NCBI RefSeq assembly: GCF_900107995.1
Contig: NZ_FNUM01000006.1
Span: forward strand, 62,001-126,000
Reading direction: 5' to 3'
Source: Alcanivorax sp. DSM 26293
GTDB lineage: Bacteria; Pseudomonadota; Gammaproteobacteria; Pseudomonadales; Alcanivoracaceae
Length of the DNA: 64,000 nt
The first letter of the stretch is position 1, and the number at the start of each line of letters is the position of its first letter. Positions 16,728-35,149 of this stretch are shown here, piece by piece. A program made the translations under genes and the position numbers. Under the pieces are notes generated by a model. That model was not told where the DNA came from. It searched no databases and saw nothing but the letters and a program-made list of their open reading frames with translations.

Positions 16728-16758
16728 CAAAAAAACCGGGAGCCTCGGCCCCCGGTTG
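16728..16758 (-). terminator. Terminator closing the surface-protein block
   Basis: On the minus strand AACCGGG and CCCGGTT enclose a 10-base GC-rich loop and run into eight to nine T residues. It lies 90 bases past the last gene of the block and 20 bases before the DUF2065 start, so it insulates the block from hisZ-purA. Confidence 0.85.
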
Positions 16759-16847: not shown

Positions 16848-19800
16848 CTAGTCCTCGCTCACCCGCACGTCATAGCTGACCACCCCCTGGGCACCGGGTT
16901 GCAACTCGCCGGTAAACCGCCACTCCAGACCGCCCTGATAGCCAATGCCATTACTGCCATCCGGTGTGGACAAGGCACAGGCACTGAGACCCGCCGGCAG
17001 TGACGCCGGACACGCCGCCGGCGCACTGAGTGCGCTGTAAGCCGGGGTGCTGTCGGTAATGATGACTTCGCTGAGCGCGTTCGTGCCCTGGTTACGGAAT
17101 GTCAGCCGGTATCGCAGCACATCTCCCGGCGCAGCCTGGTTGGCGGTGGTAGCTGCCGTATCCACATCGTCACCGGAATCGGCGACCCCGTCCGGGCCAA
17201 TGTTGCGCACCTGCTTTTCCAGTTGCAGCTGGCCGGCAGCGACACGCGTGGTGTCCGTTACCCTGGCAACAGCCTGGAAGGCGGTACCGGTATAACTCTG
17301 GGTCGCCGCCAGCGGCCGGCTGTGCAGGGCCTCGACCGGGGCATCCGCAGGCGCAAACACTTTCACCAGCAGGCAAAGCTGGTCTCCGGCCTGCACATTG
17401 ACTGCGGTAACAGGCAGGGACGCATCGGCGCCGTCCAGTTCGCCGTTACAGTTATCATCCCGGTACAGGGTATCGTTCCAGGCCGGTGCGGCCGGGCTGG
17501 TGGCGGCTGCCTCAAGGGCGAAATCCACACTACCAGCGCTTCTGGCGGTAAAGCGGTGGAGGTAGAAACGGCTGCCGCCCGGCGCCACTACGCCCTGCTG
17601 GTCCGGCTCCAGGATGGGCAGCCCCGCATCGCCGAATAACAGCCCTGTCACTGTTGTACCAGGGGCCGGCAAGGTCAAAGTCTGCCTATCATCATCCGCA
17701 GCCCCTGTTGTGGCAGGCAGCGAGCCACCGCTTTCGCTGACCGACACGAAGCCCGAGGGTGTCTGAGTTACCAGGCAAACGTCTTTCCCGGTGTCCGTTG
17801 GTGCAATCGACAGGACAAAACGCCCGTCACCCGAGGTCTGATCCGATGCCAGCACCGGATCACCATCGACACACTCGCCATTGCCATCCGTATCATGAAA
17901 GAGAGTCACCGACTGATTGGCAAAACCCGGCTCGCTCTCTCCTTTGACGCCATCATGAGCGGTCGCACCAACTCCATTGTCTTCGAACACCCATCCGGAA
18001 AGGGTGATATTCAGAATATCGAATCCAAAATTATTGTCGCTGGTGATTAACTCATCTTGCACAAGGATGCCCGTCAGGGGGCTGGCCGTACCCAGGGTCG
18101 CACCGGCAGGCAGATCCGGATCATTATCATTCACCTCAACTCGATAGGTCTGGGCCCCGAGCACCGAAGGGAAGAGGTAATCCCCATTGGTGTCGGTGTC
18201 GACACTGCCAACCAGCACGTCATCCGCAAAATTACCCGGGGTACCCCCGTCCCTGTAAAGCCTAACCTCAATATCAGCCAGCCCGGGCTCTCCATTGTCG
18301 AAGGTATCTGACCCGTCAACATCCTGATAGACCTTGCCTGACACCCCACCCAATGGAACAGGGGCTTCACCGCGACAGAAGGCACCATCATTGATACCAC
18401 CAACGGAATTAGTACTGTTCGCCAGCAAGACTCGGCTCCCGGAACCCGAGCCATCCACCCCCACATCAAAGAAATAGAGGCTGTCACTGTTATTTTCATA
18501 GGCATAAAAGCGGCCATCTTCATCAAACCACTGTGCCCCGTAGCTGCCACCGGGTATTGGCGGACCGAAGCGAGTCACCAGTCCCGTCGCTAGGTTGATC
18601 CAGGCCAGGCGGTTAGCAGTTTGATCAATGGCGTAGACACGCCCATCAACCGGGTTGAACGCCATATCGATAAAGTTGAGCGAGACGCTGAGATTGATAT
18701 CCCCCTGATAGGACGGCGGGGAAGACGTCAGATCAATAACACTTAGGCGGTTATTGCTGGTCTTGTAGATCATGCGCCCGTCGGGCAACACATCTCCAGC
18801 ATTGCTGCCATTGCGTCCATTGGGCAAGCCTGCCGGGGAGCCATTACTGTAAAAAATGCCACTGGCATCAATAAACCACAGCTCGGCTGTCCCAGACCTC
18901 AAGCCATGAATAAAACCGTCCTGGTCGTTGTAGCCCCAACCCGCATTCAGGCCCTGTCCCGCCCCTGGGCCCACATCCACAAAACTGGCCGAACTACCGG
19001 CGAAGTCAATGCGTCGTAACTGGGAGATTGGCGTAGCCACCTGATAAAGGGTGTTGATGCACTGGAATGGCACAGGGCCTATCGTGACGCGGTAGTCTTC
19101 TACCTCACCATCCTGGGCGCCGTCCTCAGCATTCAGACCGGACTGGCTGGACCAACGAAAACGGGCATAGGAATCACCGGGTAATGCCCCTGCTGGCGGC
19201 GTATTGGCTGTTATCTGGATCAAGCCATCACCATCATCATCCTGAAGATCTGTGGCTATGCGCTCTTCTTCCGAAAAAACGCCATCCTGATTCCAATCGA
19301 TCCAGGCCTGCAAATAACCATCTGCTCCGGATACTTCAACCTCCACGGGCGAGTCGTTGGGAAAGTCCCCAGGAAAAGTCACACCATCATCAAAGTTGTC
19401 CGCAAGAGCATCCGGATCGTTAAAACCCGAAGTCTCCTCATCCACGGCTGCACCGAGCACCAACCCTGCCCCCAGGATATGGGAGGGCTCTCCAAAAGAA
19501 CTTGGGGCATCACCGTAATCGGTGAGCACCTGTGGAGGGGAGGCAGTAATACAAACCTTTTGCTCGTTGAATGAGCCGCCGGTGGCAGCAGCAAACCCAA
19601 AATACACATTTGGATTCCCGGCAAAGACCGATTCGACAAAGTCTATATCCGTACTGCCGACAAGATTGCCATCGAAAGAGTAAGACAAGGTGTGAGAAGC
19701 GGCATCCCACTCAAGCTGAACACTGTGCCATTGAGCATCCTCAATATTTCCCAGGCTCACCGTAGGGGTATATTGCTGTCCACCCGAGCTGAACTCGCCG

Positions 19801-21698
19801 TAATTCTGCGGGTCATAAATCATGGTGTGATCATCCGCAATATCATTGTAGCCGGCACCGTTATTCCAGGTATCGAACTCCACAGCAACGGCGGGACTCA
19901 ACCCCCCTACACCAAGAGCACCACCGAACTCCCCAATCGCTCCATTACCTGCCGGGTCATCCTGGAAAGCGAACGCAATGCCATCGGCGCCATTGGCATC
20001 AATGGCGCCCAGATACACATCAAACTCGAGGGAAAAGTCTGACAACAAACTGATCTGGTTTTCTGACCAGGCATAGCCGCGCCGATTGCCAGCCTCGGGC
20101 GTCAAGGTAATCTCGCCGGTACCAGCATCACGTGTGGCATCCCCCCCCAGCTGCATGGTCAAGGACTGAGCGTGACAGACATTAGGCAGTTTTTCGTCGC
20201 CGAAATTGAGGCCCGACCATTCACTTCCCCCCTCCGGCACGGTGAACTCCATGCGGTCATCCGTTACATCACCTGTGCTGACCTGGCCCGCTGGCGCATC
20301 CCCGGAAGATTCACTGGTAGACTCATAACCCCATGAAGGAGCATCACTTTCCAGGCAAACCGCATCGCCCACATATTCGCCCGACAACTGGAGCTGCCAG
20401 GCGCCATCCGGATCCGTCTGAGTCTCTGCCAGTACTGTTCCCGCATCACATTGGCCGCTTCCATTCTTTGCAAGAATCCGCACGCCGATATTGTTTAAAC
20501 CCGGCTCACTGCCCTCTTTCAGGCCATTACCCGGCGTCGCCGCCACACCACTACCATCGTCCTCAAAGACATACCCAGAGAACAAAGGAGTATCCTGCAG
20601 GGTAAACCGCGACACCGCATTACCTGAGGCACCACAGGCCTGAGAGGAAACCAGATTGTAATCATCATCATTTTGGCTCAGCTCAATCTCGAACCATTTC
20701 TCCTCATCGATCTGGCCATTTTCGGCACGCACTGTTATCGGTATATCGACAACATATTCCTCATACTCACCCGCAGGCACCGTCACAGAAAAACTGGGAT
20801 TGCTATTACCATCAATCCAGTAGTCCTCGCCAATCACCGCCGTCGATTCGGGTTTCACATTAAAATTAAGTGTCAGCCCTCCCGCAGGTACCGCACCTAT
20901 CACCACCACATTGACGTTCGTTACCGACGTATCTCCTTCAGTGCCACGGTATTGCTGAGACTGGAATTCAATAATAGGTTTCAGAACCAGCTGGATATCA
21001 TCCAGAAAGTTACCGTTGGTGGACGTACCTCCAGCACTCTCAAAACCAACAACGGTATCCCCGGTAGGATCGTTGTAGGCAAAAGAGCCACTGTAGTCCG
21101 CCCAGCGAGTTTGCCCCCCCGTTGTCATCTGCTGCGACTGCACCGGATTACAGGTCCCCGAAAAACAGTTCAGGATTGCACCGCTACCGGTTCGACTAGT
21201 CTGTGCACGAATCACATTCTGATTGCCAACACTAAAAATCATCGTGTCAGGACTTGCGTTTCGGCCATTGTGACTGAAACGCCACTCTACCTGCTCCCCT
21301 TGAATCAAACAGATATCCTGAGTGAGTTTGGATAACGCTTCAGCGTTAAGCTCTGCAAATTGCACGCCACTTCTCGCCGCAATCTCGCCCTGGCCGGAAC
21401 TCACCGAGCGGGGGCCTCGCCAAAGCTCGATAATCCGCGCATTTCCTGAATATGGAGGGCCGGTATACCCTGGGGGACAACTGATATTCTGGGTATCGAG
21501 AGGATGATCCGTCACCCAGCCCGGGATCAATTCAAAGCCAATGGATGCGCGGCAAGGCGCGGCGGAGGAAATCACAGGAGATTCGAAACCCAGATTGACG
21601 AACCCGCGCTGAACCGCTCCGACAGCATGATCTGAAAACAGCAGGAACAGCGCCAAAAACCGACATAACCACAGGAAGAGTCTGAAAGAGCGCATCAT
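16848..21698 (-). CDS. Giant multidomain lectin-like exported protein (1616 aa)
   Basis: Probably secreted to the cell surface; function unknown. Layout by eye: signal peptide 1-29; jelly-roll-like module with GWVTDH and FAELNAEA (30-245); Calx-beta-like module (246-368); SdrD B-like module (372-505); L-type lectin-like domain with GIAFAFQDDP, VAVEFDTWNN and WHSVQLEWD (507-720); GEVED-type module (725-874); propeller-like repeats as in DUF6923 (880-1112); two SdrD B-like modules (1118-1360); a DUF11 module (1480-1616) ending SYDVRVSED. It starts at ATG 21698 with GGAG overlapping the end of the upstream gene; GTG 21701 directly follows that stop, so translation is coupled. The region 18000-21700 is visibly more AT-rich than its neighbours (24 G/C in the 60 bases from 20641), suggesting a separate origin. 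Confidence 0.85.
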   Translation of the reverse strand: MMRSFRLFLWLCRFLALFLLFSDHAVGAVQRGFVNLGFESPVISSAAPCRASIGFELIPGWVTDHPLDTQNISCPPGYTGPPYSGNARIIELWRGPRSVSSGQGEIAARSGVQFAELNAEALSKLTQDICLIQGEQVEWRFSHNGRNASPDTMIFSVGNQNVIRAQTSRTGSGAILNCFSGTCNPVQSQQMTTGGQTRWADYSGSFAYNDPTGDTVVGFESAGGTSTNGNFLDDIQLVLKPIIEFQSQQYRGTEGDTSVTNVNVVVIGAVPAGGLTLNFNVKPESTAVIGEDYWIDGNSNPSFSVTVPAGEYEEYVVDIPITVRAENGQIDEEKWFEIELSQNDDDYNLVSSQACGASGNAVSRFTLQDTPLFSGYVFEDDGSGVAATPGNGLKEGSEPGLNNIGVRILAKNGSGQCDAGTVLAETQTDPDGAWQLQLSGEYVGDAVCLESDAPSWGYESTSESSGDAPAGQVSTGDVTDDRMEFTVPEGGSEWSGLNFGDEKLPNVCHAQSLTMQLGGDATRDAGTGEITLTPEAGNRRGYAWSENQISLLSDFSLEFDVYLGAIDANGADGIAFAFQDDPAGNGAIGEFGGALGVGGLSPAVAVEFDTWNNGAGYNDIADDHTMIYDPQNYGEFSSGGQQYTPTVSLGNIEDAQWHSVQLEWDAASHTLSYSFDGNLVGSTDIDFVESVFAGNPNVYFGFAAATGGSFNEQKVCITASPPQVLTDYGDAPSSFGEPSHILGAGLVLGAAVDEETSGFNDPDALADNFDDGVTFPGDFPNDSPVEVEVSGADGYLQAWIDWNQDGVFSEEERIATDLQDDDGDGLIQITANTPPAGALPGDSYARFRWSSQSGLNAEDGAQDGEVEDYRVTIGPVPFQCINTLYQVATPISQLRRIDFAGSSASFVDVGPGAGQGLNAGWGYNDQDGFIHGLRSGTAELWFIDASGIFYSNGSPAGLPNGRNGSNAGDVLPDGRMIYKTSNNRLSVIDLTSSPPSYQGDINLSVSLNFIDMAFNPVDGRVYAIDQTANRLAWINLATGLVTRFGPPIPGGSYGAQWFDEDGRFYAYENNSDSLYFFDVGVDGSGSGSRVLLANSTNSVGGINDGAFCRGEAPVPLGGVSGKVYQDVDGSDTFDNGEPGLADIEVRLYRDGGTPGNFADDVLVGSVDTDTNGDYLFPSVLGAQTYRVEVNDNDPDLPAGATLGTASPLTGILVQDELITSDNNFGFDILNITLSGWVFEDNGVGATAHDGVKGESEPGFANQSVTLFHDTDGNGECVDGDPVLASDQTSGDGRFVLSIAPTDTGKDVCLVTQTPSGFVSVSESGGSLPATTGAADDDRQTLTLPAPGTTVTGLLFGDAGLPILEPDQQGVVAPGGSRFYLHRFTARSAGSVDFALEAAATSPAAPAWNDTLYRDDNCNGELDGADASLPVTAVNVQAGDQLCLLVKVFAPADAPVEALHSRPLAATQSYTGTAFQAVARVTDTTRVAAGQLQLEKQVRNIGPDGVADSGDDVDTAATTANQAAPGDVLRYRLTFRNQGTNALSEVIITDSTPAYSALSAPAACPASLPAGLSACALSTPDGSNGIGYQGGLEWRFTGELQPGAQGVVSYDVRVSED

Positions 21699-21701
21699 CA
21701 C

Positions 21702-24569
21702 TTACTCCACCCGCAAACCGAAAATCAGCACAGCGGCTTCACCGGCACCCAACAGGCCGACCTCCGCAGAAACATCGCCAGTCCCCGCATCCGGCGGCGC
21801 CGTCACACTGCAGGGCCCGGCCGGAGCCACACAGCTGGTTGCCGCCGCCAGCATACGGGTAAACGGTTGTGTACGATCATTGATAGTGACCTGGTACATG
21901 GGCTCGGCGCCGGTATTGGTCGCCGTGAGCCGGTAAATGACACACTGCTCGCCGGGCGTGACCTCGAAACGGGTGAAGACAAAACAGTCGTCCCCACTGC
22001 AGCTACCAGGGCCATCGGGGACACCATTGCAGTCCGAGTCCAGCGCCTGCTCTTTGGTGATCGCCACATCCGTATTATTGGTGGTGGTGGTATCCGTTGC
22101 CGAGTCCGTGACACTCTGACCGGCACCGTCCGCCGTTACCGTCAGCGTTTTCACATTGGTGATGCCGTAGGCCACTGACGCCGGCGCAAAAATCTTGGAG
22201 AAAATCGCCAGACTTTCGCCCACCTCAAGAACGCCGTCATCGCCTGCTGTTTGCAGTGCCACGCTGTCATTGATCACAGCATCAGCCGGATCCCAGATAC
22301 CATTGCCGTTCGAGTCTTCATATAGCACGATCGACCAGCCGTTATCTGCCGCCGCATCAGGAGTGCCCGCCAGCAACACATTATTTAACGGCACATTACC
22401 GGTATTGGTCAGTTGATGGGTATAGACCACCGAGCTACCTGGCTCCACCTGCCCCACCTGATCCGGGGTCAGCGCCAGGGCAGGGCCGGCCACCACGACT
22501 ACCGCATCCAGCTTGATATCACTGGCGCCGCTGGTCGGCGACAAGGCACGGAAATACACGGAGAGGGTATCGCCCCCTTGTGCTTCTGCCGGTGCAGTGA
22601 TCTGGGCACAGATCAGCCGGTTATCACCGGCGGGGATCAGTCCGGTGTTGTTGAGCCCCGCACCCAGTGAGGCGCAGTCACCGTTACCGCCGTCGCGATA
22701 AAAACTCACTTGCCACCCCGAAGGTAGCTGACCCGGTGCAAAGTCCGTATCGCTGACAGCCAGATCATAGGAGTCCTGACGGGCGCCGGTATTATTCACC
22801 ACCAGACGCAGTACCGCCTGCTCGCCGGGGGCCGCATTCACGGTCTGCACCGGTGAGGCTTCCGGACCGGCGCCCTCACCGGGAGCCCCGCCATTGACCG
22901 GGGAATCATTGGTCAGGTCCACGCGATTGGCCAGGATACTGGTGAGCACATCACTGACCGCATTGCTCACCTGGGGGTCCGTCACTGAACGGGCAACCTT
23001 GGTGACTTCAAACGGCCCTCCGAGGGCATCCGGAGGCAAGGTAGCCTGCAGCACCACACGCACACCACAGGCCAGATTCAGGCTGTCGGTCACAAACCGT
23101 GGCGGACATTGGCCTCCCGCATCCGGTAGCGGGATCGGCCCCGTATCGGGCACCCCATTGCCGTCGGTATCCACCAGCGGCGTTCCCCCATCACTCTTGT
23201 AGAGCTGGAACACGGTGGCTGCAGGGAAGGGATTGGCCAACGCCACACCCAATCGATCTACCGAGGGTTCTACCAGCATGTCGAAGGTATCTTCGCCATC
23301 CCCCCGGTTCCAGATCACATTGCTGAAGGATGCCACGCCCCCCTGCCCCAGGGATGCCAATTCCACCCGGTTGCCGGTATTGCTGGCATCATCTTCACCG
23401 GTCTGACTGTCAGTCTCGCTGTTGTTGGCAACCACCGCGGGCAACAGTGCCCGGTCGATAATCCGGTAATCCACGGTATTGGTGGCGAAGGGACCGAAGT
23501 TGGTGCTGCCATCATTATTCTGATAGCTCAGTGTTGCCTGATTGCGGACCCGGTCGCCGGCATCAAGCCCGCTGTCGATGTTGACATCGAAGGTCAGGGA
23601 GCCCACTGCGCCCGGTGGCAATTGCGCCAGCACCGCACGAACACGATCATGGCAATCGCTGTTGGCGGCACCGGGATCGTAGGCACAGAATTCAATCAGA
23701 TCCGGGCCGCTGCCCTGGCTACCGTCATCACCGTCATCCGTGAGCTCGGTGCTGCCGGTGACGGTCCAGCGTGCCGAACCCGGCACATAGGTCATGCCCG
23801 CATTCACGCCGTCCACGGAGAACAGGGGCAGAACATCCTCGATTTCTATCTGCGTGGCGATCTGGTCAGAAGGATTGCGGTACGACAGGGTGACCGTCAC
23901 CGGCCCGGATGGAGAGCGGCCCTGACGGGCACTGAGCGACTTCACCACTTCCAGTACCGGACCATCAATCAGGTTGATGGTATCGGTATTGCTCGCGGTC
24001 AGTGCCGCATTGCTATGACTGGCAGCCTCCACATCCAGTGCCAGAGATTGTCCGCTAATGGCGGCGCCACTGACCTGCGCTTCAATGACCAGGCCATAGC
24101 TGTCACCGGCCAGCAGGTCCGACGTCAACGCATCCCAGCAACCATCCGGATCCGAATCGGTAAACAGTGGCGCACCACTGTCCGGCTGACCATCACCGTT
24201 CCCGTCCGGGAATACGGACCACGCGGCAATATTGCCATCCACATTTTCCAAGCAGAGCTGGTAGCGATCACGGCCGTTGCCGGTATTGGTGAGGGTATGG
24301 GGGAAATACACCACGCCCCCGGGGAGAGAAGGCTTGTTCTGGGCGCTGACCAGCTCAATGCCCGGCACCGCCTGTATCAGGGTTTCGACCAGGTTGGAGG
24401 TGACACGCTGGGCCTCGGCCAAACGGGTACAGGCATCATCCAGACAGGCCCGATAGCTGGCCGATGCCTGGTTCTTGATGACGGTGCCCGCCACGGGTGC
24501 CGCCGCCTTGACAGCCACGGCCGTCAACAGCAGCAACACTATTCCCAGAGACTTGCGCATCAGCATCAT
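21702..24569 (-). CDS. DUF11-repeat exported protein (955 aa)
   Basis: Function unknown; probably a surface or periplasmic subunit. Signal peptide (MRKSLGIVLLLLTAVAVKAA), then an N-terminal module with AGTVIKNQASASY and HTLTNTGNGRDRYQL shared with the 991-aa and 2091-aa proteins. Several beta-rich DUF11-like modules follow. Aspartate/asparagine/glycine loops such as DGNGDGQPDSG and DSNGNGIWDP look like calcium-binding loops. The last module (PGEQCVIYRLTATNTGAEP ... VLIFGLRVE) ends at the final residue. ATG 24569 has GAGGT upstream, four bases after the OmpA-type gene. Four closely spaced genes here form one transcription unit. Confidence 0.88.
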   Translation of the reverse strand: MMLMRKSLGIVLLLLTAVAVKAAAPVAGTVIKNQASASYRACLDDACTRLAEAQRVTSNLVETLIQAVPGIELVSAQNKPSLPGGVVYFPHTLTNTGNGRDRYQLCLENVDGNIAAWSVFPDGNGDGQPDSGAPLFTDSDPDGCWDALTSDLLAGDSYGLVIEAQVSGAAISGQSLALDVEAASHSNAALTASNTDTINLIDGPVLEVVKSLSARQGRSPSGPVTVTLSYRNPSDQIATQIEIEDVLPLFSVDGVNAGMTYVPGSARWTVTGSTELTDDGDDGSQGSGPDLIEFCAYDPGAANSDCHDRVRAVLAQLPPGAVGSLTFDVNIDSGLDAGDRVRNQATLSYQNNDGSTNFGPFATNTVDYRIIDRALLPAVVANNSETDSQTGEDDASNTGNRVELASLGQGGVASFSNVIWNRGDGEDTFDMLVEPSVDRLGVALANPFPAATVFQLYKSDGGTPLVDTDGNGVPDTGPIPLPDAGGQCPPRFVTDSLNLACGVRVVLQATLPPDALGGPFEVTKVARSVTDPQVSNAVSDVLTSILANRVDLTNDSPVNGGAPGEGAGPEASPVQTVNAAPGEQAVLRLVVNNTGARQDSYDLAVSDTDFAPGQLPSGWQVSFYRDGGNGDCASLGAGLNNTGLIPAGDNRLICAQITAPAEAQGGDTLSVYFRALSPTSGASDIKLDAVVVVAGPALALTPDQVGQVEPGSSVVYTHQLTNTGNVPLNNVLLAGTPDAAADNGWSIVLYEDSNGNGIWDPADAVINDSVALQTAGDDGVLEVGESLAIFSKIFAPASVAYGITNVKTLTVTADGAGQSVTDSATDTTTTNNTDVAITKEQALDSDCNGVPDGPGSCSGDDCFVFTRFEVTPGEQCVIYRLTATNTGAEPMYQVTINDRTQPFTRMLAAATSCVAPAGPCSVTAPPDAGTGDVSAEVGLLGAGEAAVLIFGLRVE

Positions 24570-24573
24570 CCCG

Positions 24574-25158
24574 TTACCTCACCGGCTCGGGGGCCTGGAA
24601 GCTGTCGCCGCCACTTCGGTCAAAGTCCACCCGCAATACCAGCGGACGCCCCTGGGCATCCAGTGGCATCAATTCCACACGGCGGTTGACGATACGATCC
24701 TGCTCACTATCACTTGGCAGAATGGGAAGCTCCTTACCCAGGGGGGCAGATTTTATTCGTGAAGCATCCAGACCGTTGGCTTGCAGATAATCATTGACCC
24801 GCTGCATCCGTTTCTCTGCCAATACCCGGTTGTATTGTTTGCCACCGCGCTGATCCGTGAATGCCTGAACGCTTACCTGTAGCGTCGGGTACTGTTTGAG
24901 AATGGCCAGATTCCGGTCCAGGCGTTGGCTTTCTTCTTCGCCCAGCCCATGCTGGTCAAAACCAAAATACACTGCCGGCTCCCACAGCTGTCCCTGCGAC
25001 TGGGAAGCCAGTCCCGTCACCATCACCATACCGGTATCGGTGACGCTGGCCTTTACCGGGCAGACCTCATCGTATTCCGCGTAGAGCGCTTCCGTGCTGA
25101 CGCAACCGGACAGTATGCCTCCCAGCAACAGTGCTGCGGCCATCACAAAACGGTTCAT
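24574..25158 (-). CDS. OmpA-family peptidoglycan-binding lipoprotein
   Basis: A 194-aa outer-membrane lipoprotein. The signal ends in lipobox LSGC (Cys 19). An OmpA-like domain at about residues 60-170 carries YFGFDQHGL, VQAFTDQRGGKQYN and the NRRVEL region, the features that bind peptidoglycan. An aspartate and a basic residue are present where OmpA domains contact diaminopimelate. It overlaps the 2091-aa barrel gene by four bases (ATGA) and is followed by the two DUF11 genes, so it is a likely cell-wall anchor for the surface complex. Confidence 0.9.
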   Translation of the reverse strand: MNRFVMAAALLLGGILSGCVSTEALYAEYDEVCPVKASVTDTGMVMVTGLASQSQGQLWEPAVYFGFDQHGLGEEESQRLDRNLAILKQYPTLQVSVQAFTDQRGGKQYNRVLAEKRMQRVNDYLQANGLDASRIKSAPLGKELPILPSDSEQDRIVNRRVELMPLDAQGRPLVLRVDFDRSGGDSFQAPEPVR

Positions 25159-28100: not shown

Positions 28101-31100
28101 TACATAGAGATGCGGTTCTACCCCGCCGCGCACCACCACCTGCAGACGGCCATCACGACTGATGCCATCCCGTGGCCACAGCCAGGTACCGGCCACGGCC
28201 TGCTCGCGGGTTACATTGGCCGCCATGTCCTTGGTGGCCCCCATTTGCGCTTCCTCGGCAGGTGCCTGGGTCAACTCTGGCCGGGCCGCCGGCTGGCTGC
28301 GGCTCACCTGTTCCCAGACCTCGGTCAGGTTGGCATCACCGGTCTGGGTGTACACACCGCTCCCCAGATCCCCGCTGCCATCCGCCTGACGCAGGCGGTT
28401 GTTCACGTTGTTCTGGCGCAGGGGATCGAAGCGGGCGGCTTCATCCAGCATCCAGTCACCGGACAGGGACGCATTACGGGCCTTCAGGTTTTCCACGATG
28501 GCATCACGCTGGTCCGCCGTGGGGCACATGGCGGCAAAATCCGCCCGGTGATACTCCCCGGGGCGCAGATCCAGAAAACGGCTTTGCGGATCCGCCGCAT
28601 GACGATTATCGATGGGCTTGAGTTTCAGCCCTTCCGGCAGCGTCAGCGGGTCCACCTTGATGGTGTGCAGCCCCGGGCGCAGCCCATAAAGGCTGTACTG
28701 GCCATTCTCATCGGTAATGACCCAGGAGCCATCGGACAGGTACAGCTTCACGCCGCCCACCGGATATTCGCCGTCGTTCTGCAGGTTGTTACAGTCGTTG
28801 TCCACGTAGATCTTGCCGAACACCATGGCCCGGTCAGACAGCACGCCTTCATTACGCACCTGGACTTTCGCTTCACCCTGGTTGGAGAAATAGGTGAATC
28901 CGGAAGCAGTATTTGCCTGGGCGGTAGCCCGGTTGATGCCATCACTGTCCACCGCACCGGCGGAAAGACGCAGACCGTAATGCAGCGTGACGGTACTGCC
29001 CGGCTGCAACGGCAAAGGCTGCGGACCGCTGGCGGTCTGCTGCTGGATCACAAAGGTCAACTGGTTACCGCCATTGTTGGTGGGATCCGGAATCTCGATA
29101 CGCTGATCGTTGATCTCCAGCCAGGCACTGTCCTCGATATACCGGAACCCGTAAGGCAGCCGGTCCACGATACGGGCAGCGAATAGCTCCGCGTCATGAT
29201 TGCTGGTCAGGTCAATCCGGTAAGCCAGGACATCACCCACCGCCGCTCGCTCCGCTTCGACCTGCTTGTCCAGCACCAGCACGCCTGCGGTGGTTGCCGT
29301 GGAGGGGTCCAGGGGAATATCCACAAACACATCGGCCAGGCCCAGCAGGAAGGCACCCGGGTTGTTCACAGCAGCCATGCGCGCCGCTGCCCGACCCACC
29401 GGGGCCACATCCGGATCATAGCCCCCCAACCCATAGGAGCTTTGCGAGATATTGCTGAAAAAGACTTTGGCCGCTGCGGGGGATACCGCAGAGGGGAAGG
29501 AATATCCCTCCGGGGGAACCACATCCAGATAATAACAATGACCGGGGGTCGCCAGAGGAAACTGGTAACGGCCCGGTTGCTGGGTATTATCCGCCGCCGT
29601 CGCGTTGGTGTTTTCCGTTGGCAGCACGTCCCCGGTAAAGGGATGCAAGGCACGCTCGTAGCCGCTTTCCGGCAAGGCCGCACAACTGGCCAGCCCGGTA
29701 TCCGCCAAGGGCTGACGGGACTGGTACAGGGTCACCACCGCATCCGGCAAGGGGCGGCCGTTACTGGAGTCATACACGGTGCCCGCCGGGTCCACAGCGG
29801 CCAGAGCCGTGACGGTCTGGACATTCACCACGCTGCCATCCGGACCAAAGGTGGGCACCGAGAAGGTGGCCGTGATCCGATCCTCGGCGCCGGTTTGCAG
29901 CACACAGCCCAGGCCCAGCACCTCATTGAGCGTGGTGCTGCCGGAGTACTGGGCCAGACTGTTCTCGTTGGCCGTTGCCGGGCACAGCCCACCGGCCCCG
30001 GACCGGGATTCATTAAGGGAGAACGGGTATACACTGCGGAAAACCCCGGTATTCACGCCGGTTTCCCGCACCGCCATCACCAGGGAGTCGCCGGTGAGAC
30101 GGGAGTTCAGTGACACCTGCAACAACCGCTCACCGCCGGGGGTGGTCTGCACAAAATCCCGGTCCGCCAGCACCTGATTCAACTGGGATGCCGTCACCCG
30201 CAGGTAGACGCCGTCCAGAAGGATACGCTGACTCGCCTCGGGCAACAGGGGATAGATGGCCGCATCGACAAAATCATTGTCATTGCCATGCTCCGGCGCC
30301 CGGTTCTGCTGGAAAACCGCATTGGAGGGCCGCTGGAAAGTAATGCCCGGAGACAAGGTCGCCGCCACCCGGTGGCAGACGCGGTTACTTTCCACGTCAG
30401 CCAGCCCATCACCGTCCAGGTCCACGCTGGCCCGGTTGAACAGCAAAGTGCCCTGGGTCAGGCCACTGTTGATCAACACCTCAAAGGAGAACCCGCCGGT
30501 CTGGTTATTCCGAATCTGGTCGGCAGGGATGAGCAGACCGACCCGATCCACCGTTCCATTGCCGGTCCAGTCAGCGTAACGCTGCCAGACATCCGCCGAG
30601 TCGCCAGCAAGATGCACCACAGGCAACGCCTGCAAGGGGGCAATATCCGCCATCGAGGCCGCCAGCAAGGTCACGTTGCCTGGCAAGGCATCTTCCACCA
30701 GAACGCCCTGCTCCGCTTGCCCCCCCACTTGCAAGGTGCGCTCCACGGGGGCGCTGTTGCCCACGTTGGTGACCGAAACCTGGTAGTCGATGATGGCCCC
30801 TTCCTGCTGCGGCACGTCACAACTCAGGCTCGAGGATTTGCTCAGCACCAGGGAGGCACCATCAGCAATCACCACCCGGTCCAGCACCGCATCCGTGAGG
30901 GTCCCGTTCAGCTGGGACTGGGCGTCCAGGGACAAACGAATCTCATCACCACTGACCAGCGAGGCGGGAACCGTGCCGCTGATGACCAGATTGACTGTCA
31001 CCCCGGGAAGCACCGAGGGCAATTCCGTCACCGCCGGCTCGCCCGGGTCGGCAACACCATTGCCATTGCTGTCCAGATAAATCGTCAGCCCCTGCAGGTC

Positions 31101-31430
31101 ACCCGCATCGCCGCCCAGATTGGTCAGCGACAGGGAATAACCGTCAGTCACATTACCGGTATTGGTCAGGGTATGGTCGATGCTGATGGACTGCCCCGGC
31201 GACGCGGCCCGGGTCTTGTCTTGATCCAGTTCAAACGCGGGGCTTTCCGCCACCATGACCCGGGAAATATTGGAACGCACGACCACAACCCGCCCTTCCA
31301 GCGGATCGAAATAACGCATTTCCGCCTGATTCAACAACGCGGTGCCCGGCGCCGTGGCAGCATGCAGCAGCACGCTGGTCATGACCAGCATGCTGATAAC
31401 AGCAATGCGAATGGCGGCAAGCAGTTTCAT
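25155..31430 (-). CDS. Giant protein with adhesin-like modules and outer-membrane beta-barrel (2091 aa)
   Basis: Signal peptide 1-25, then the shared N-terminal module (PGTALLNQAEMRY, HTLTNTGNVTDGY, calcium-type loop YLDSNGNGVADPGE). An internal DUF11-like module follows near 717-850 (VLVLDKQVEAERAAVGDVL), an SdrD B-like module near 870-930 (FGKIYVDNDCNN ... GVKLYLSDG) and an Ig-like module near 1180-1275. From about 1280 to 2080 the sequence is a succession of short amphipathic strands with aromatic girdles and charged loops (for example YNVLGARFRYQLNDKLTVSA, YNVEGLYIGLEYKF), as in a large outer-membrane barrel. The barrel ends about 20 residues before the C terminus. It is the best candidate for the outer-membrane core of the locus. 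I do not recognise a named family for the whole protein. Confidence 0.85.
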   Translation of the reverse strand: MKLLAAIRIAVISMLVMTSVLLHAATAPGTALLNQAEMRYFDPLEGRVVVVRSNISRVMVAESPAFELDQDKTRAASPGQSISIDHTLTNTGNVTDGYSLSLTNLGGDAGDLQGLTIYLDSNGNGVADPGEPAVTELPSVLPGVTVNLVISGTVPASLVSGDEIRLSLDAQSQLNGTLTDAVLDRVVIADGASLVLSKSSSLSCDVPQQEGAIIDYQVSVTNVGNSAPVERTLQVGGQAEQGVLVEDALPGNVTLLAASMADIAPLQALPVVHLAGDSADVWQRYADWTGNGTVDRVGLLIPADQIRNNQTGGFSFEVLINSGLTQGTLLFNRASVDLDGDGLADVESNRVCHRVAATLSPGITFQRPSNAVFQQNRAPEHGNDNDFVDAAIYPLLPEASQRILLDGVYLRVTASQLNQVLADRDFVQTTPGGERLLQVSLNSRLTGDSLVMAVRETGVNTGVFRSVYPFSLNESRSGAGGLCPATANENSLAQYSGSTTLNEVLGLGCVLQTGAEDRITATFSVPTFGPDGSVVNVQTVTALAAVDPAGTVYDSSNGRPLPDAVVTLYQSRQPLADTGLASCAALPESGYERALHPFTGDVLPTENTNATAADNTQQPGRYQFPLATPGHCYYLDVVPPEGYSFPSAVSPAAAKVFFSNISQSSYGLGGYDPDVAPVGRAAARMAAVNNPGAFLLGLADVFVDIPLDPSTATTAGVLVLDKQVEAERAAVGDVLAYRIDLTSNHDAELFAARIVDRLPYGFRYIEDSAWLEINDQRIEIPDPTNNGGNQLTFVIQQQTASGPQPLPLQPGSTVTLHYGLRLSAGAVDSDGINRATAQANTASGFTYFSNQGEAKVQVRNEGVLSDRAMVFGKIYVDNDCNNLQNDGEYPVGGVKLYLSDGSWVITDENGQYSLYGLRPGLHTIKVDPLTLPEGLKLKPIDNRHAADPQSRFLDLRPGEYHRADFAAMCPTADQRDAIVENLKARNASLSGDWMLDEAARFDPLRQNNVNNRLRQADGSGDLGSGVYTQTGDANLTEVWEQVSRSQPAARPELTQAPAEEAQMGATKDMAANVTREQAVAGTWLWPRDGISRDGRLQVVVRGGVEPHLYVNDKKVPRSQLGEQVLNRREKAQVLSWYGVSLEEGDNQVEVRAMDPFGNERVLASTEILRPEAPRSLTLEPQEPTLAADGGRSTLAIRVRMQDARGNPARGTYFVTLENDKGDWLEEDLQPENPGHQVRVSDGEGLVHLRSTEYTGPIRLRALVEDFVATARVEQVAPLRPLVATGYVQLRQGFGGNVRDNGNAPTEIGDSLPEEGLDANGAVFLKGAVRGGAHLTLAYDTDNDLDDDEEIRRDLNPSDSYPIAGDASVRGYDARSRSKLYAKLEKDRSSLLWGDYLTDPNYDFQDLGRVQRTLTGLNAIYENDRARFQVFGARPEYEQVSEEIPGNGTALLFTLANRPARDSETLELIVRDRDNPGLVISTQPLTRYVDYSVNYFTGDIRFHDVIPSVDENLNPVFIRASYNVEASDAEEYNVLGARFRYQLNDKLTVSASRTRDEHDSEGFDLTSVAAEYALTEQNSIYASSATMENNDDGMEGGAFSLGSQWRWQNGSSTDLRWARAEEGFRNPAAGIAESREEMRLDHEQVLSRSLSAQVEAVHSQSLENDDAQSSLGVIGKKQIGATQLRAGARGIEQQDDEGSDRFATWILGASQGTSVFGKPLTVGSEYEQAFNDRDRRRIAADADLGITDKTSLYGRYELINSLSGVNLLNNDVETRQFTFGVRSALSRSTDVFSEYRLRGAQDGRDVAAANGVRSHFEIEPGLTFSPSAEWIETLEGSTSQDSTALSLAAEDKRNPNRRTLGRVETRFGDERTYYGLSAANIWRVNLDWSAVVRDDLRLQYFDGQPKQGDNIVTLGMARRPRLDNRHHMLFMYKWKTQWGGDAASDRRVHILSNHHNFQPHDDWIFSGRIGAKWQQTELGNLDVETDAYVADGRIIWDISRRFDLDLHGGALTTEGVSERRYSYGVGVNALVRRNLRMGVGYNFSGFRDDDLDPEGYNVEGLYIGLEYKFDEDDLGWLGSKAAGQRSYMGDAQ

Positions 31431-31468
31431 TGAGCGTTCTGTACCCGTTGTTTTTATGCCTCAGGGGC

Positions 31469-31522
31469 TTTTCCAGACCCGGCGCACCGGCCCTGGAAAA
31501 GCCCTCCCCCGAAGGGGAGGGC
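31469..31522 (-). terminator. Hairpin pair between the 991-aa and 2091-aa genes
   Basis: On the minus strand a perfect 9-bp stem GCCCTCCCC/GGGGAGGGC (31501-31522) with a TTCG-containing loop is followed by TTTT. Just beyond it, TTTTCCAG and CTGGAAAA (31469-31500) can form a second stem that shares those T residues. This looks like an intra-operon attenuator that would let the first genes be expressed more than the barrel. Confidence 0.65.
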
Positions 31523-31538
31523 AATGCCTGGGGGAGCG

Positions 31539-34514
31539 TTAGTTCACTTCGACACAGAACTGGGCGGTGGCACTGTTACCCGGCACCAGAGTACCGATTG
31601 CCCATTCCACCACCGGCAAACCCGAGGTATCCGCAGGCGCGGTACCACCAGAGGCAATAACCGCCTCGTTCGCCACCAAATTGGAGGTAAACTCGGTTTG
31701 CTCATCGGTGATCACCACCTCATTGGCAGGGGTCGCCCCTTCGTTGGTGGCGGTCAGCTGCCACACCACACACTCGCCAGGTGCAACCGGATTGGATTGC
31801 ACCGCCGCGAAACCGGCGTCATCGATAGCGGGCCAGGTACCCCCCGCACAATCACAGGCCGTATCAATCGCCGCCTGCTTGTCCAGACGCACCTGGCCGA
31901 CCACCACTTCAGTGGTGTCGGTGGCGGAGTCAGACACATTGGCGTTGCTGGCGGTCAGGGTGTAGGTGTCTACCGTGCCGGCAGGCGCATTGGACGGTGC
32001 AAACACGGTAACGCGCACATCCAGGCGCTCACCGGGTTGCAGGGTCACCAGCGGGTTGGCTCCGCCATTGTCGATATCCACCAGGATGGTGTTGCCATTG
32101 GGGGTACGAACGGCCACATCCGTTGCCGTCGGCAGGTTCGCCAGCTGCACCCAGGAATCCGGGGTACCGTCACTGGTGGTGTCGATGAACAACTGGGTAT
32201 TGTTGCTCCAGCCATTACCGGCCAGGGAGTTCACTCCGGTGATTTCCACGGCTTCGGTAGTGTTACCACCATTGGCGATCACATGGGTGTAATCCACATT
32301 ACCACCGGGCTGCACCTGGTTGGCGCCATCCGGGGAAACGGTGACATTGCGGTTGGCGATCACATCCACCGCATCCAGCTTCTGGTCGGTAATGGTGCCA
32401 TCAGAGGTAGACACCACCGTAAAGCGAATCGGGTAGTCCCCGTCGCTGTCACCGTTGCCGTCCACATCATCCAGACCGGAGCTGGCGACAGTGCCTTCGA
32501 AGTTGGACAGGGCCTGAGCCACCTGGCTGGAGACCTGGACCAGGGCTTCGTACTGGTACACCGCACCGGCAGGCAGGCTCGGCGTGGCGGTCACCACGTT
32601 GCCCGCATTGCTGGTGTTATCTGCCGTGCCGTCACCGTTGGTGTCCACACCCACCTCACGGAAGGTCACCGACCAGCCCGCGGGCAGATCCGCACCCAGG
32701 GTAAAGGATTGGGCATTACCGGAATTGTTGGCCACGAACAGCGGGAAGGTGGCAACACCACCGACAGCAACTGGCGTGGTCGTGGTCGGCGCCGCCGCAT
32801 TGAACGCATCCGCGTCGATACCGGCATCCGTCAGATCGGCAGTAAAGCTGTTAGCCAAATCCACTGCCGGGGCTACGATTTCACTCAGCACTTCCAGCTT
32901 GTCATCACTGACGCTGTTGTCGCCGAAGGAGGTGGCAACCATGGTCGCCACAAAGGGCCCCGTGCCGCTGACACCAGCAGGCAGCTGGGCACGCACGGTG
33001 ATGCGACGATCCGCACCCGCCGCAATGGTGCCAGTATCCGGCACACCATTACCGTTGGTGTCGGTCAGCTGGGTATTGTTGGTCGCGTTCCAGAAGGTGA
33101 ACAGCGTGCCTGCCGGGAAAGCCTGGGCACCCGCCGGGACTGTGCCCGCGCCGCCGTAAGTCGCACCGGCATTGTTATTGATGCTCAGGTCAAAGACATC
33201 ACTGCCGTTACCGTTGTTGGCAACGATGTTGGCAAACGCCACCACAGCGCCGGAGTTGGCTTCATCCTGCAGCGCAACGTCGTTCAGCGTCGCATCCGCA
33301 TCGGCCCCATCGCCGGTATCGGTTGCGTCCACGGCATAGGTCTGCTGGATAGTGGTGGTGGTGGTGTTGGATGTGGACGGGTCATCCGGATTGCCGTCGC
33401 CATCCAGATCCCCTTCTGCCGCAAAGGTGTTGCGGATCTGGGTACCGGAGGCCAGGGTGCCATCGAAGTCGACCTTATAGACCACGGTCACGGTGGTGTT
33501 CACGCCCATGATGGCATCACGGAAGTTGATACCTTTCAGGGTTTCACCGGTAGTGCCGTTACCGTCCAGGTCCACACCCGCAGGCTCAGTCACATCTGCC
33601 AGATCTGCCACACCGGCATAGGAGTGGGGCAGGGACTGCAACGCACCCGTGTTATCCAGCCACTGGTCACCACTGGAGGCGAGCAGACCGTTCACGGAAA
33701 CAATTTCCGCGAAGGTAGCATTGGCAGGGATCGGGTCGAAGATGTCCACATCTTCCGCCGCCCGGCCACCGTTGTTCTTCACTTCCAGGGTGTAGGTGAT
33801 GGTGTTGTCGGTGAAGTTGGGCACTGCGGTTTTGCTGAGCTGCAGTACCGCGTCGGTGGTTACCGTCACCACATTGTTGTTGGTGTCGTTACCGTCCGGG
33901 GTGCTGTCTCCGTCGGCATCGTAAGTGCCGGCATCGCCGTTGGCACCAATATCCTCAACGGTACCTGCACCGCCACCGTTGGACTCCACCAGCAGGGTAG
34001 ACTCGATCGTGTCGCCGGCACTGGCGCCGGCTGGCACGGGTACCGCAACAATCAGTTCAGCCTGTTGTCCTGCATTCAGGTTGACGCTGGTAACCGCAGA
34101 CTCACCGGCATCCGGCACACCGTTACCGTTGGCATCCAGATACACCGTGTAGGTCGATGCACCGGTAGCAGCGTCCAGACCGGCCAGGCCGTCAACACTG
34201 AAGCTGTCGGCAGCATTACCGGTATTGGTCAGGGTGTGAGTGAAGTAGACAGTCTCACCGGGCGCACCGGATTTGCTGCCATCGTTTTCCAGGGTCGCCG
34301 CATACACTTCCGCAACGGTTACCGTGGATTCATTGGACTGGGCCGAATAGCTGTTGCCGTTGGCGTCCTCATAGGTCACCGTCGCCCGGTTGTTAATGTC
34401 GGTCCCGGCAGGTGTCAGAGCCAGTGTTTGCCCGGCGGCAAGCACCAACCCCAACCCCATGACCGAGGCGGACACACGCGCAGACAACAGGCCCCTTTGA
34501 AAGGCGAGTTTCAT
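31539..34514 (-). CDS. DUF11-repeat exported protein (991 aa), likely major subunit
   Basis: Function unknown. Signal peptide about 33 residues long (MKLAFQRGLLSARVSASVMGLGLVL... ending ALA), then AGTDINNRATVTYED and HTLTNTGNAADSF, the N-terminal module shared with two other proteins of the locus. Several beta-sandwich modules follow, with calcium-type loops YLDANGNGVPDAGE and DTNGNGVPDTG. The composition is very rich in Asn, Thr, Asp, Gly and Ala and poor in Lys. The last DUF11 module ends AQFCVEVN at the C terminus. I chose ATG 34514, preceded by AAGGA; the longer frame from 34637 lacks a signal peptide at its start. A strong hairpin follows the stop, consistent with this being the most abundant product. 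Confidence 0.88.
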   Translation of the reverse strand: MKLAFQRGLLSARVSASVMGLGLVLAAGQTLALTPAGTDINNRATVTYEDANGNSYSAQSNESTVTVAEVYAATLENDGSKSGAPGETVYFTHTLTNTGNAADSFSVDGLAGLDAATGASTYTVYLDANGNGVPDAGESAVTSVNLNAGQQAELIVAVPVPAGASAGDTIESTLLVESNGGGAGTVEDIGANGDAGTYDADGDSTPDGNDTNNNVVTVTTDAVLQLSKTAVPNFTDNTITYTLEVKNNGGRAAEDVDIFDPIPANATFAEIVSVNGLLASSGDQWLDNTGALQSLPHSYAGVADLADVTEPAGVDLDGNGTTGETLKGINFRDAIMGVNTTVTVVYKVDFDGTLASGTQIRNTFAAEGDLDGDGNPDDPSTSNTTTTTIQQTYAVDATDTGDGADADATLNDVALQDEANSGAVVAFANIVANNGNGSDVFDLSINNNAGATYGGAGTVPAGAQAFPAGTLFTFWNATNNTQLTDTNGNGVPDTGTIAAGADRRITVRAQLPAGVSGTGPFVATMVATSFGDNSVSDDKLEVLSEIVAPAVDLANSFTADLTDAGIDADAFNAAAPTTTTPVAVGGVATFPLFVANNSGNAQSFTLGADLPAGWSVTFREVGVDTNGDGTADNTSNAGNVVTATPSLPAGAVYQYEALVQVSSQVAQALSNFEGTVASSGLDDVDGNGDSDGDYPIRFTVVSTSDGTITDQKLDAVDVIANRNVTVSPDGANQVQPGGNVDYTHVIANGGNTTEAVEITGVNSLAGNGWSNNTQLFIDTTSDGTPDSWVQLANLPTATDVAVRTPNGNTILVDIDNGGANPLVTLQPGERLDVRVTVFAPSNAPAGTVDTYTLTASNANVSDSATDTTEVVVGQVRLDKQAAIDTACDCAGGTWPAIDDAGFAAVQSNPVAPGECVVWQLTATNEGATPANEVVITDEQTEFTSNLVANEAVIASGGTAPADTSGLPVVEWAIGTLVPGNSATAQFCVEVN

Positions 34515-34678
34515 GGCTGTTTCCTTTAATTGGAGTTTGAGTTTCGGACTACTTCTGATCTGAAAGCCTTGCCAGAGCGACCCTCCACACGCGGTGTGAG
34601 CCACTCCCCCAGTGCGACATACAAGTCGCTCGCACAAGACTTCCCGGGCCAGGGTGGGCCCTGATCATGTTCCTCCGG

Positions 34679-35149
34679 TTACTGCACCTTTACCCGGTAC
34701 CGGTATTCCAGTACCTGGCCTGGCTGGATTCCGCTTTGCGGAACCCAGCGCAGCTGGGTGTAGTCACTCGGAGGAACAATGACGTTCTGTGTCTGGCCAT
34801 CAGGGCCAGTGATTGAGCGCGTAACCGGCTCCGCCTCAAAACTGCTGCCATCATCGATGCTGACAGTAAATACTGCCTCCACATCGGTGTCGGCCGAGTT
34901 GGCGAGGTAAGCGGTATTGGCGGGAATCGGCCCGGTGATTTCCAGGCCGGAAAGCGGTTGTTCCGACTGGTTGGTATAGATCAGTCGGTATTCGATCACA
35001 TCACCGGGAGACGCTTCCTCAGTGACGGTCATTACTTCCTGGCCATCCTTTTCAGCCACCAGGTAGGTTTCCATTTGGCTGGTCAGTGGGCCATCCGCCC
35101 ACAAGGTGGTTGCCCAGCACAGCAAAGCCCCAAGAATAAAGCGGTTCAT
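34679..35149 (-). CDS. Small exported single-module DUF11-like protein (156 aa)
   Basis: First gene of the surface locus. Signal peptide MNRFILGALLCWATTLWA, then one DUF11-like module (SPGDVIEYRLIYTNQSEQP ... GLEITGPIPANTAYL) ending GQVLEYRYRVKVQ at the C terminus, the same ending as in three larger proteins of the locus. It is therefore the minimal form of that C-terminal module. I chose ATG 35149 (GGGAT upstream); the longer frame from 35209 has no signal peptide at its start. The 164 bases to the next gene contain a short CACAC-GCG-GTGTG hairpin (34586-34598). Confidence 0.8.
   Translation of the reverse strand: MNRFILGALLCWATTLWADGPLTSQMETYLVAEKDGQEVMTVTEEASPGDVIEYRLIYTNQSEQPLSGLEITGPIPANTAYLANSADTDVEAVFTVSIDDGSSFEAEPVTRSITGPDGQTQNVIVPPSDYTQLRWVPQSGIQPGQVLEYRYRVKVQ

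Follow-up and report, generated by a model that had tools for sequence, protein, structure and literature searches.

In chaperone-usher pili, such as type 1 and P pili, the N-terminal donor of each subunit completes the preceding subunit, the adhesin at the tip is devoid of a donor, growth occurs at the base on a large plugged barrel, and a small periplasmic partner of the immunoglobulin (Ig) type is present. Here, we describe a block of six minus-strand genes, at 16848-35149 of a 64,000-nucleotide stretch of the marine oil degrader Alcanivorax sp. DSM 26293 (contig NZ_FNUM01000006.1, positions 62,001 to 126,000; this whole stretch is called the window below). On balance, profiles and models make it probable that the operon encodes a surface fibre assembling via a natural split isopeptide domain. 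The system would resemble a chaperone-usher pilus in its logic and the SpyTag/SpyCatcher pair in its chemistry; by the tests reported below, it is a member of neither. We regard it as a candidate new class of surface fibre, a rating that depends entirely on the inferred steps.

The isopeptide domain in question is DUF11, or CLIPPER, in which Lys715 is bonded to Asn806, presumably with the assistance of Asp748 (crystal structure 9IFR; PMC12617251; this paper and the others cited here are used through extracts of their text). The Acinetobacter silvestris CLIPPER adhesin B9T28_05395 (9IFR) shares with the present system a CshA_NR2-like and GEVED-like tip, a CLIPPER stalk, an OmpA-like anchor, and the Lys, Asp, and Asn residues. 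However, all modules of B9T28_05395 belong to one chain and its bonds form within domains, whereas in the window the modules are carried by separate proteins, a domain appears to be split between them, and there is a dedicated barrel (PMC12617251). The layout of an OmpA-anchored fibrillar adhesin, with tip, stalk, and anchor in a single polypeptide, is replaced here by separate genes. In SpyTag/SpyCatcher and DogTag/DogCatcher, as proposed for the window, an isopeptide domain is split so that one reactive residue is in the tag and the other in the catcher; these pairs were engineered from Streptococcus surface proteins, whereas the split in the window would be natural, would concern a CnaA-like fold, and would serve to build a fibre (PMC6539128, PMC8878318). 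PMC12617251 also cites sporesilk, in which an inter-subunit bond forms autocatalytically and the fold is a helical hairpin. Finally, the threads of Sulfolobus acidocaldarius are head-to-tail fibres that rely on donor-strand complementation and for which isopeptide bonds between subunits have been proposed; they differ from the fibre envisaged here in that the bond would connect subunits n and n+2 through Asn57 and the N-terminal Asp24, and in having one main subunit and a putative cap protein (PMC9715654). They are the nearest precedent found for the combination of donor strands and proposed inter-subunit isopeptide bonds, with different residues. To our knowledge, they have no outer membrane or barrel.

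The features that the window would share with chaperone-usher pili are donor completion, an N-terminal adhesin tip without a donor, basal growth on a plugged barrel, and a small partner. The differences are a larger, C-terminal barrel, a hairpin donor with a reactive Asn, a peptidoglycan anchor, and subunits of 955-1617 amino acids (aa). All six genes are present as open reading frames (ORFs), with the products that a first-pass annotation of the window had listed. In the order of transcription, they are:

34679-35149, minus strand: P0006, 156 aa counted from its ATG, in an ORF that is open from 35209, a small exported protein with a single DUF11-type domain
31539-34514, minus strand: P0005, 991 aa from its ATG, a DUF11 linker with a predicted N-terminal donor and C-terminal acceptor
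25155-31430, minus strand: P0004, 2091 aa, with a predicted donor hairpin, an arm of DUF11 and SdrD_B domains, a weak Invasin_D3-like domain, and a C-terminal barrel
24574-25158, minus strand: P0003, 194 aa, an OmpA-type lipoprotein (lipobox judged by eye)
21702-24569, minus strand: P0002, 955 aa, a DUF11 linker with predicted donor and acceptor
16848-21701, minus strand: P0001, 1617 aa, starting at a GTG or at the following ATG, with a variable N-terminus, L-type lectin, GEVED, DUF6923, and SdrD_B-like domains, a predicted C-terminal acceptor, and no donor

The DUF11 repeat model of NCBIfam scores above its cut-off in P0001, P0002, P0004, P0005, and P0006, that is, in all proteins except P0003. 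Pfam DUF11 (PF01345) does so in P0005 alone among the six. Signal peptides were assigned by eye or with a crude script.

The C-terminal Pfam DUF11 match of P0005 spans model positions 8-84 of 114 and ends where the protein ends, and the C-termini of P0001, P0002, P0005, and P0006 all finish on a strand-like stretch. Two profiles were built, A7 from acceptors only and A9 from donors only, each including the three examples of the window. The predicted halves, together with one unsplit domain, are the following:

34272-34415, minus strand: donor hairpin at the mature N-terminus of P0005 (GTDINNRATVTY...SNESTVTV), within donor profile A9
31542-31904, minus strand: acceptor at the C-terminus of P0005, with the putative reactive Lys and Asp and without the last strands (profile and model)
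31209-31355, minus strand: donor hairpin at the mature N-terminus of the barrel protein P0004 (GTALLNQAEMRY...SNISRVMV), within donor profile A9
24336-24497, minus strand: donor hairpin of P0002, within donor profile A9
21705-22076, minus strand: acceptor domain of P0002, within acceptor profile A7
23508-23918, minus strand: internal unsplit domain of P0002, residues 218-354, made of an acceptor-like body, 3 residues, and a donor-like strand (A7 and A9 matches)
16851-17240, minus strand: acceptor domain of P0001, within acceptor profile A7

Searched against the 3.7-Mb genome, A7 retrieves P0002, P0001, and P0005 (expect value, E, 1.9e-31 to 3.7e-28), all of them rows of A7 itself. Next come P0006 (6.6e-10) and, at E 1.8e-6 to 0.002, three stretches inside P0005 and P0002; at E 0.01, the whole genome has no match beyond the operon. 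A9 retrieves the barrel protein, P0005, and P0002 (E 1.1e-22 to 7.7e-18), again all rows of the profile itself, with nothing beyond the operon at E 0.1; of three weaker matches (E 0.4-0.9), two lie inside P0002 and P0005, and the third is elsewhere in the genome, in a short frame that contains a stop. In the internal domain of P0002, the A7 match (23574-23918, E 1.1e-4) ends three residues before the A9 match (23508-23564, E 0.41), and in P0005 the internal A7 (partial) and A9 matches lie 65 residues apart in one internal domain. On these matches, the terminal halves would follow each other in unsplit domains, and this is the result to which the analysis gives most weight.

The residues of the two halves were compared with those of the crystal structure. 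Profile A5, made of nine unsplit internal domains from related loci that were selected by a pattern requiring Lys, Asp, and Asn, matches 9IFR at E 2.9e-6. Its Lys falls on position 10 of the 9IFR chain and its Asn on position 101, and the same offset gives Lys715 and Asn806. The Asn belongs to a motif, IxNxA, which is also the core of the mature N-termini of P0004, P0005, and P0002 (xAGTxIxNxAxxxY...SNxxxVxV). Related loci were recovered by barrel similarity; of the 95 loci, 12 are of the Alcanivorax type and close to one another, and some lie on contigs with cut ends. A duplicate (L165 = L094) was removed from the counts of locus architecture and of OmpA and kept in those of gene order, N-motif, donor motif, and residue conservation. 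A profile of the N-terminal motif, whose seeds were taken from the first 110 residues with a pattern allowing N or K at the Asn place, has 172 of its 180 matches within the first 120 residues (the seeds themselves being N-terminal), and 164 of the 173 matched proteins belong to barrel operons. The motif residue is Asn in 155/160 cases and Ser in 5/160, and it is Asn in 46/46 barrels matching the donor profile; the donor motif was found in 0/62 small proteins and 0/24 OmpA proteins. In the aligned C-terminal domains of the subunits, Asp is present in 129/129 and Lys in 118/129 (8 of the remainder being gaps). These counts are independent of the acceptor pattern used for locus architecture, which demands Lys and Asp. 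In P0006 relatives, Asp is kept in 5/62 and replaced by Asn or Gly in 53/62; at the Lys place, the eight most frequent letters, accounting for 58/62, do not include Lys. None of the C-terminal domains has the Lys, Asp, and Asn triad in one chain: the chain stops before the Asn strand, and the motif Asn is found at the N-termini. The distribution of the halves and of their residues shows, at the level of profiles and models, that the subunits carry the predicted two halves of one isopeptide-forming DUF11 (CLIPPER) domain.

Head-to-tail complementation might also be non-covalent, as in chaperone-usher or type V pili, with Lys, Asp, and Asn as structural remnants. The split of the fold, being supported independently of the chemistry, agrees with this explanation, but the retention of Asp and Lys in the acceptors, when both are lost in most members of the P0006 family of the same fold, makes it rather unlikely.

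The split reading was also examined by rejoining the halves. Against Pfam DUF11, the P0005 acceptor scores 33.7 bits alone. Followed by a donor, it scores 41.9 bits with that of P0005 (positions 8-113), 41.7 with that of the barrel protein (8-102), and 40.0 with that of P0002 (8-98), as compared with 35.8, 35.8, and 34.7 with the N-termini of P0006, P0001, and P0003, respectively, and 36.6 with a scramble. The P0001 acceptor reaches 35.1 bits (9-113) with a donor vs. 23.7 (9-47) with its own N-terminus, a gain of 11.4 over its one control, and for the P0002 acceptor the scores are 21.2 vs. 16.8 bits, a gain of 4.4. The donor peptides alone (48-55 aa) have no Pfam match. With an in-house profile of unsplit domains, on which scores are low, the donor beats a control N-terminus in 35/51 loci and a shuffled donor in 40/51 loci (29/39 outside the Alcanivorax type).

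AlphaFold2 folds the P0005 acceptor alone (pLDDT 89.0, pTM 0.81) into seven strands, the last of which ends at residue 120 of 121. On realignment, 9IFR is in third place (Z 8.3, 2.0 A, 90/121 residues aligned), model residues 1-121 corresponding to positions 19-109 of the 9IFR chain, that is, 91 positions of a 123-residue chain. With Lys placed on Lys, the aligned 9IFR span stops before Asn806 under the presumed numbering offset. The pilin BcpA reaches Z 8.2. Because the fold class is common, the acceptor model supports the split without proving it. Its high confidence would also suit a reading without any polymer, in which P0001, P0002, and P0005 would each stand alone on the surface close to an OmpA-anchored barrel, with the N-terminal motif folded against the first domain of the chain that bears it and with no strand missing from the C-terminal domain. 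However, the motif is similar to the strands that close internal DUF11 domains, where they come directly after an acceptor-like body, and the first domain of P0005 has, by eye, its own strands at that place; we hold this reading to be unlikely.

In the split-domain reading, the halves have a polarity: P0001 carries an acceptor only, P0005 and P0002 carry both halves, and the barrel protein carries a donor only. This polarity predicts a covalent head-to-tail chain running from the tip through the linkers to the barrel. P0005 is probably the major subunit. The tip P0001, in which Pfam finds L-type lectin, GEVED, and DUF6923, bears the lectin-type domain that had been expected:

19545-20156, minus strand: L-type lectin domain of P0001, residues 516-719 (PF18483, E 4.1e-53)

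Among 12 orthologues of P0001, GEVED is found in 12/12, the L-type lectin in 10/12, and CshA_NR2, absent in the window, in 10/12. Lys1496 and Asp1550 are invariant and no column is invariant in residues 2-581; the N-terminal part of the tip varies between species and the acceptor is fixed. As a separate observation, three loci have, next to the barrel operon and on the opposite strand, a gene for a tip-like protein that ends in an acceptor (L086:2217-2690, L107:12653-13084, L118:1048-1428 (minus strand)).

By its sequence, P0006 is an acceptor-like body without the reactive Lys and Asp, in other words a "dead" acceptor, and perhaps acts as a cap or chaperone. Its family occurs in 67/95 barrel loci. 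A small protein, a linker, and a barrel with a donor occur together in 36/95 loci, 25 of which also have a tip (12/25 of the Alcanivorax type). The acceptor pattern matches 3/224 opposite-strand ORFs, and the small protein in 6/67 loci.

A fuller scheme can be proposed, tentatively. It would define a class of self-building Gram-negative fibres in which spontaneous intermolecular Lys-Asn bonds join tip, linkers, and barrel, OmpA provides a tether, and a dead P0006 chaperone blocks premature ligation. The donor of the incoming subunit (n+1) would complete the acceptor of subunit n, and the Lys-Asn bond would then form between the completed halves without an enzyme. Growth would take place at the base, giving the chain order tip-linkers-barrel, until the donor of the barrel protein caps the base, which would end growth and hold the fibre in the outer membrane. 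P0003 would tether the barrel to peptidoglycan, and P0006 would keep donors non-covalently bound until assembly. By analogy with the usher, subunits would probably exit through the very wide, plugged barrel.

The outer-membrane barrel, so far only suspected, is borne out by an AlphaFold2 model of P0004 residues 1280-2091 (43 sequences; mean pLDDT 77.4, pTM 0.66). By our count, the model has 39 strands besides five short ones; some of the 39 may lie outside the wall, and the barrel is put at roughly 36-39 strands. Its features are:

25158-27593, minus strand: barrel domain, P0004 residues 1280-2091 (AlphaFold2 model)
26862-27041, minus strand: plug-like insertion of five short strands, preceded by about eight strands of the barrel (model residues 185-244; DSSP of the model; position and role are our reading)

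In Pfam, the window barrel has partial, below-cut-off matches only (OMP_b-brl, Porin_4). Among 43 barrel members, Porin_4 is the commonest match (in 10), and 0/43 match the Usher family PF00577 at E 0.1. P0004 matches no barrel family of NCBIfam, and searches of PDB sequences with P0004, P0005, and the barrel profile (at E 10 for the profile) gave no match. The Invasin_D3 match ahead of the barrel is weak (16.8 bits vs. a Pfam cut-off of 33). The top Foldseek matches of the model are Deinococcus SlpA complexes, LptD, TonB receptors, and the type 9 translocon, with low TM-scores; SprA of this translocon is also a very large barrel (8gl6, E 1e-6, TM about 0.1-0.2). After realignment, FimD ushers take the first seven places (Z 17.0 to 15.2; 5.8 A and 317 residues aligned for the top chain) and porins come next at 14.8. 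The C-terminus of P0004 is thus predicted to be a large barrel, possibly usher-like, the fold ranking not establishing homology. That this barrel is instead the main element of a porin-like surface layer coated by DUF11 proteins, as in the S-layer deinoxanthin-binding complex of Deinococcus SlpA, is very unlikely, because the SlpA complexes 8agd, 7zgx, and 8ae1, although Foldseek matches 1, 2, and 5 (E 1e-7 to 6e-7), have low TM-scores (0.25-0.26 by query length), rank below FimD in the realignment (Z 14.1 vs. 17.0), and leave the polarity of tip and linkers unexplained.

The OmpA domain of P0003 (PF00691, E 1.2e-13) has counterparts in the related loci. An OmpA domain lies within the barrel protein in 47/95 loci and in a same-strand gene at most 3.5 kb away in 22/95; the two arrangements coexist in 0/95 loci, and neither is found in 26/95, 5 of which have a cut barrel ORF. 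Pfam finds OmpA in 12/24 sampled barrel proteins at E 0.01. Because OmpA is fused or adjacent and never both, P0003 and the barrel look like one functional unit, and the role of P0003 as a peptidoglycan anchor, already put forward in the first-pass annotation, is strengthened. The fused OmpA domain sits before the barrel, mostly behind the DUF11 arm, so that this arm would be either periplasmic, seizing the fibre from below, or threaded through the pore.

Several points weigh against a covalent, split-domain fibre. Covalent bonding, fibre, and export are all inferred. The Asp of A5 aligns to position 44 of the 9IFR chain, one beyond the place of the published Asp748. The Asn count has some circularity, the donor seeds having been chosen with N or K allowed at this place, and among 46 pattern-chosen acceptors Lys is invariant and Asp is not, the tip of locus L117 being without Asp. 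The donor-like internal matches are individually weak (E 0.41 and 0.89). Rejoining the halves in five loci outside Alcanivoracaceae changes the score by +2.0, +2.7, +2.6, +3.0, and -1.2 bits, and on the in-house profile a donor scores above its control N-terminus in only 23/39 loci outside the Alcanivorax type. Clathrin adaptor domains outscore 9IFR for the acceptor model (up to Z 9.4), for which Foldseek gives no match at E 0.001. The full grammar is missing from 70/95 loci, partly as a result of cut contigs. In addition, 38/84 complete barrel ORFs miss the donor profile; in about ten of these the motif can be recognised by eye, and a few have a late start. The donor motif is absent from Alcanivoracaceae B-type, C-type, and beta-proteobacterial barrels, so that barrel anchoring would not be universal. 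Finally, fold ranking of a model is the only ground for the usher likeness of the barrel.

The six genes are closely spaced. P0004 and P0003 overlap by 4 bases, P0003 and P0002 are 4 bases apart, and P0002 and P0001 abut; wider spacings separate P0005 from P0004 (108 bases) and P0006 from P0005 (164 bases). Two candidate signals frame the block:

35238-35267, minus strand: promoter-like site upstream of P0006 (consensus match only)
16734-16757, minus strand: terminator-like hairpin of 10 pairs with a T tail, downstream of P0001 (pattern match only)

Promoter-like sites are rarer than in shuffled sequence and terminator-like ones are about as frequent as in shuffles. The block is flanked by HisZ-like and HflC-like genes (these names are our own reading). 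It is not at the tRNA-Leu (cag) of 9570-9656, which lies about 7 kb away.

The search for barrel relatives covered 57 genomes from the genus, family, and order to which the window belongs, its own genome being one of them. The order of the six genes is identical in 12/12 loci, made up of the window and 11 with a close barrel relative (67-97% over the barrel); in one gene listing, longer opposite-strand ORFs mask some genes of L036, L040, L043, and L046. Within the genus, 10/17 genomes carry the block with all six genes, and in the other 7/17 the HflC-like and HisZ-like genes adjoin, with none of the six detected between them. The two genomes closest to that of the window by HisZ-like identity (97 and 96%) belong to this empty-site group. 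These occurrences show that the block is gained or lost as a whole unit. Some empty-site genomes (G002, G004, G009, G011) have other barrel types elsewhere. Because the order recurs in 12/12 loci and the same gene kinds recur in Photobacterium phosphoreum, the gene set exceeds chance. In P. phosphoreum (barrel identity 41%), as in two genomes of one other genus of the class (L174, L175), which share these gene kinds, the tip gene stands in front; the tip genes of these three loci, and P0002 of L174, extend past the fetched stretches. The first-pass annotation stood on several points, the barrel, the anchor, the lectin tip, the DUF11 subunits, and the joint travel of the genes. Neither of the two outcomes that would have refuted it, a predicted structure lacking a barrel or genes occurring apart, was obtained. 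Its further claims, of a fibre or layer and of a gene set complete for one, go beyond these results; it had missed the split-domain logic and the wide spread of relatives.

Beyond the genus, a scan of contigs gave 64 named loci, including Alcanivorax jadensis T9 (96% over a 900-aa query). The barrel is found in 52/369 sampled Gammaproteobacteria genomes at E 1e-10, and relatives at 23-35% occur in beta-, alpha-, and deltaproteobacteria, Nitrospirae, and Troglogloeales. A frequent alternative layout consists of a DUF11 protein of 320-420 aa, a P0006 relative of about 165 aa, a DUF11 protein of 350-480 aa, and a barrel protein of 1700-2480 aa. A second Alcanivorax barrel type (L056-L061) has 1730-1760 aa, with three OmpA-like domains ahead of the barrel and no donor motif; its gene lies behind that of a giant DUF11 protein (1578 to >2400 aa, five of six being cut by the stretch). 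In Comamonadaceae/Burkholderiaceae (L073, L076, L080, L081, L110, L113, L116), the barrel protein is short (1081-1127 aa in four complete cases), an OmpA gene follows it in 6/7 loci, and in L073 and L076 it is preceded by a giant protein, of 3051 aa in one and 3208 aa or more in the other. This version looks like a one-chain form of the same fibre. A related locus (L176) is carried by the mobilizable Acinetobacter haemolyticus plasmid p4 (CP085288, 2987-16494), with a 156-aa hypothetical protein, DUF11 and other short ORFs, a 2008-aa DUF11 barrel protein, OmpA, and a 978-aa DUF11 protein; the expected position of the linker gene is annotated as several short ORFs.

Membership of known systems was considered in turn. 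An ordinary chaperone-usher locus was rejected: there is no usher match, and at E 1 none of the six proteins matches a PapD-type chaperone family in Pfam or NCBIfam (for P0003, among the best 25 of 34 NCBIfam matches). The same genome has a true usher gene (G000:C15:275449-277098; PF00577, E 1.1e-167) and pieces of a second one (G000:C7:530701-532084), so that the six-gene system would be additional to classical pili and would not replace them. Two more DUF11 proteins of this genome (G000:C7:315071-315331 and G000:C7:578154-578486, in frames of 1890 and 656 aa) have no acceptor-profile match at E 0.01, and no second barrel of the P0004 family was found in it. An inverse autotransporter (intimin/invasin), with an N-terminal barrel followed by an Ig-like passenger, was rejected since the barrel is at the opposite, C-terminal end. 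On reading, P0001, P0002, P0005, and P0006 have no sortase-type C-terminal signal (no LPXTG, membrane segment, or basic tail). As for type V pili, no fimbrillin family is found among the Pfam and NCBIfam matches, and P0001, P0002, and P0005 have no lipobox by reading. The name TonB-dependent receptor, given to 6/16 plasmid records of distant relatives, was rejected, as no receptor or TonB-plug family is among the Pfam matches listed. Binding to oil droplets, a guess made earlier, was dropped, there being no evidence either way. Among the matches listed in the openly licensed literature (CC0, CC BY, CC BY-SA), work on Alcanivorax adhesins contains nothing on this locus, and neither the gene set, nor a natural split DUF11 domain, nor a Gram-negative fibre with spontaneous isopeptide bonds is described. 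No named system was matched in the libraries or papers searched.

If the proposal is true, the tag/catcher principle, which engineers made by cutting isopeptide domains, would already exist in nature, and covalent fibres would be built outside Gram-negative cells without a sortase. A fibre class would be added beside chaperone-usher, type IV, and type V pili and curli. A function would be given to a barrel family present in 52/369 sampled gammaproteobacterial genomes, for which neither a family of its own in Pfam or NCBIfam nor a sequence match in the PDB was found, and many candidate tag/catcher pairs would become available.

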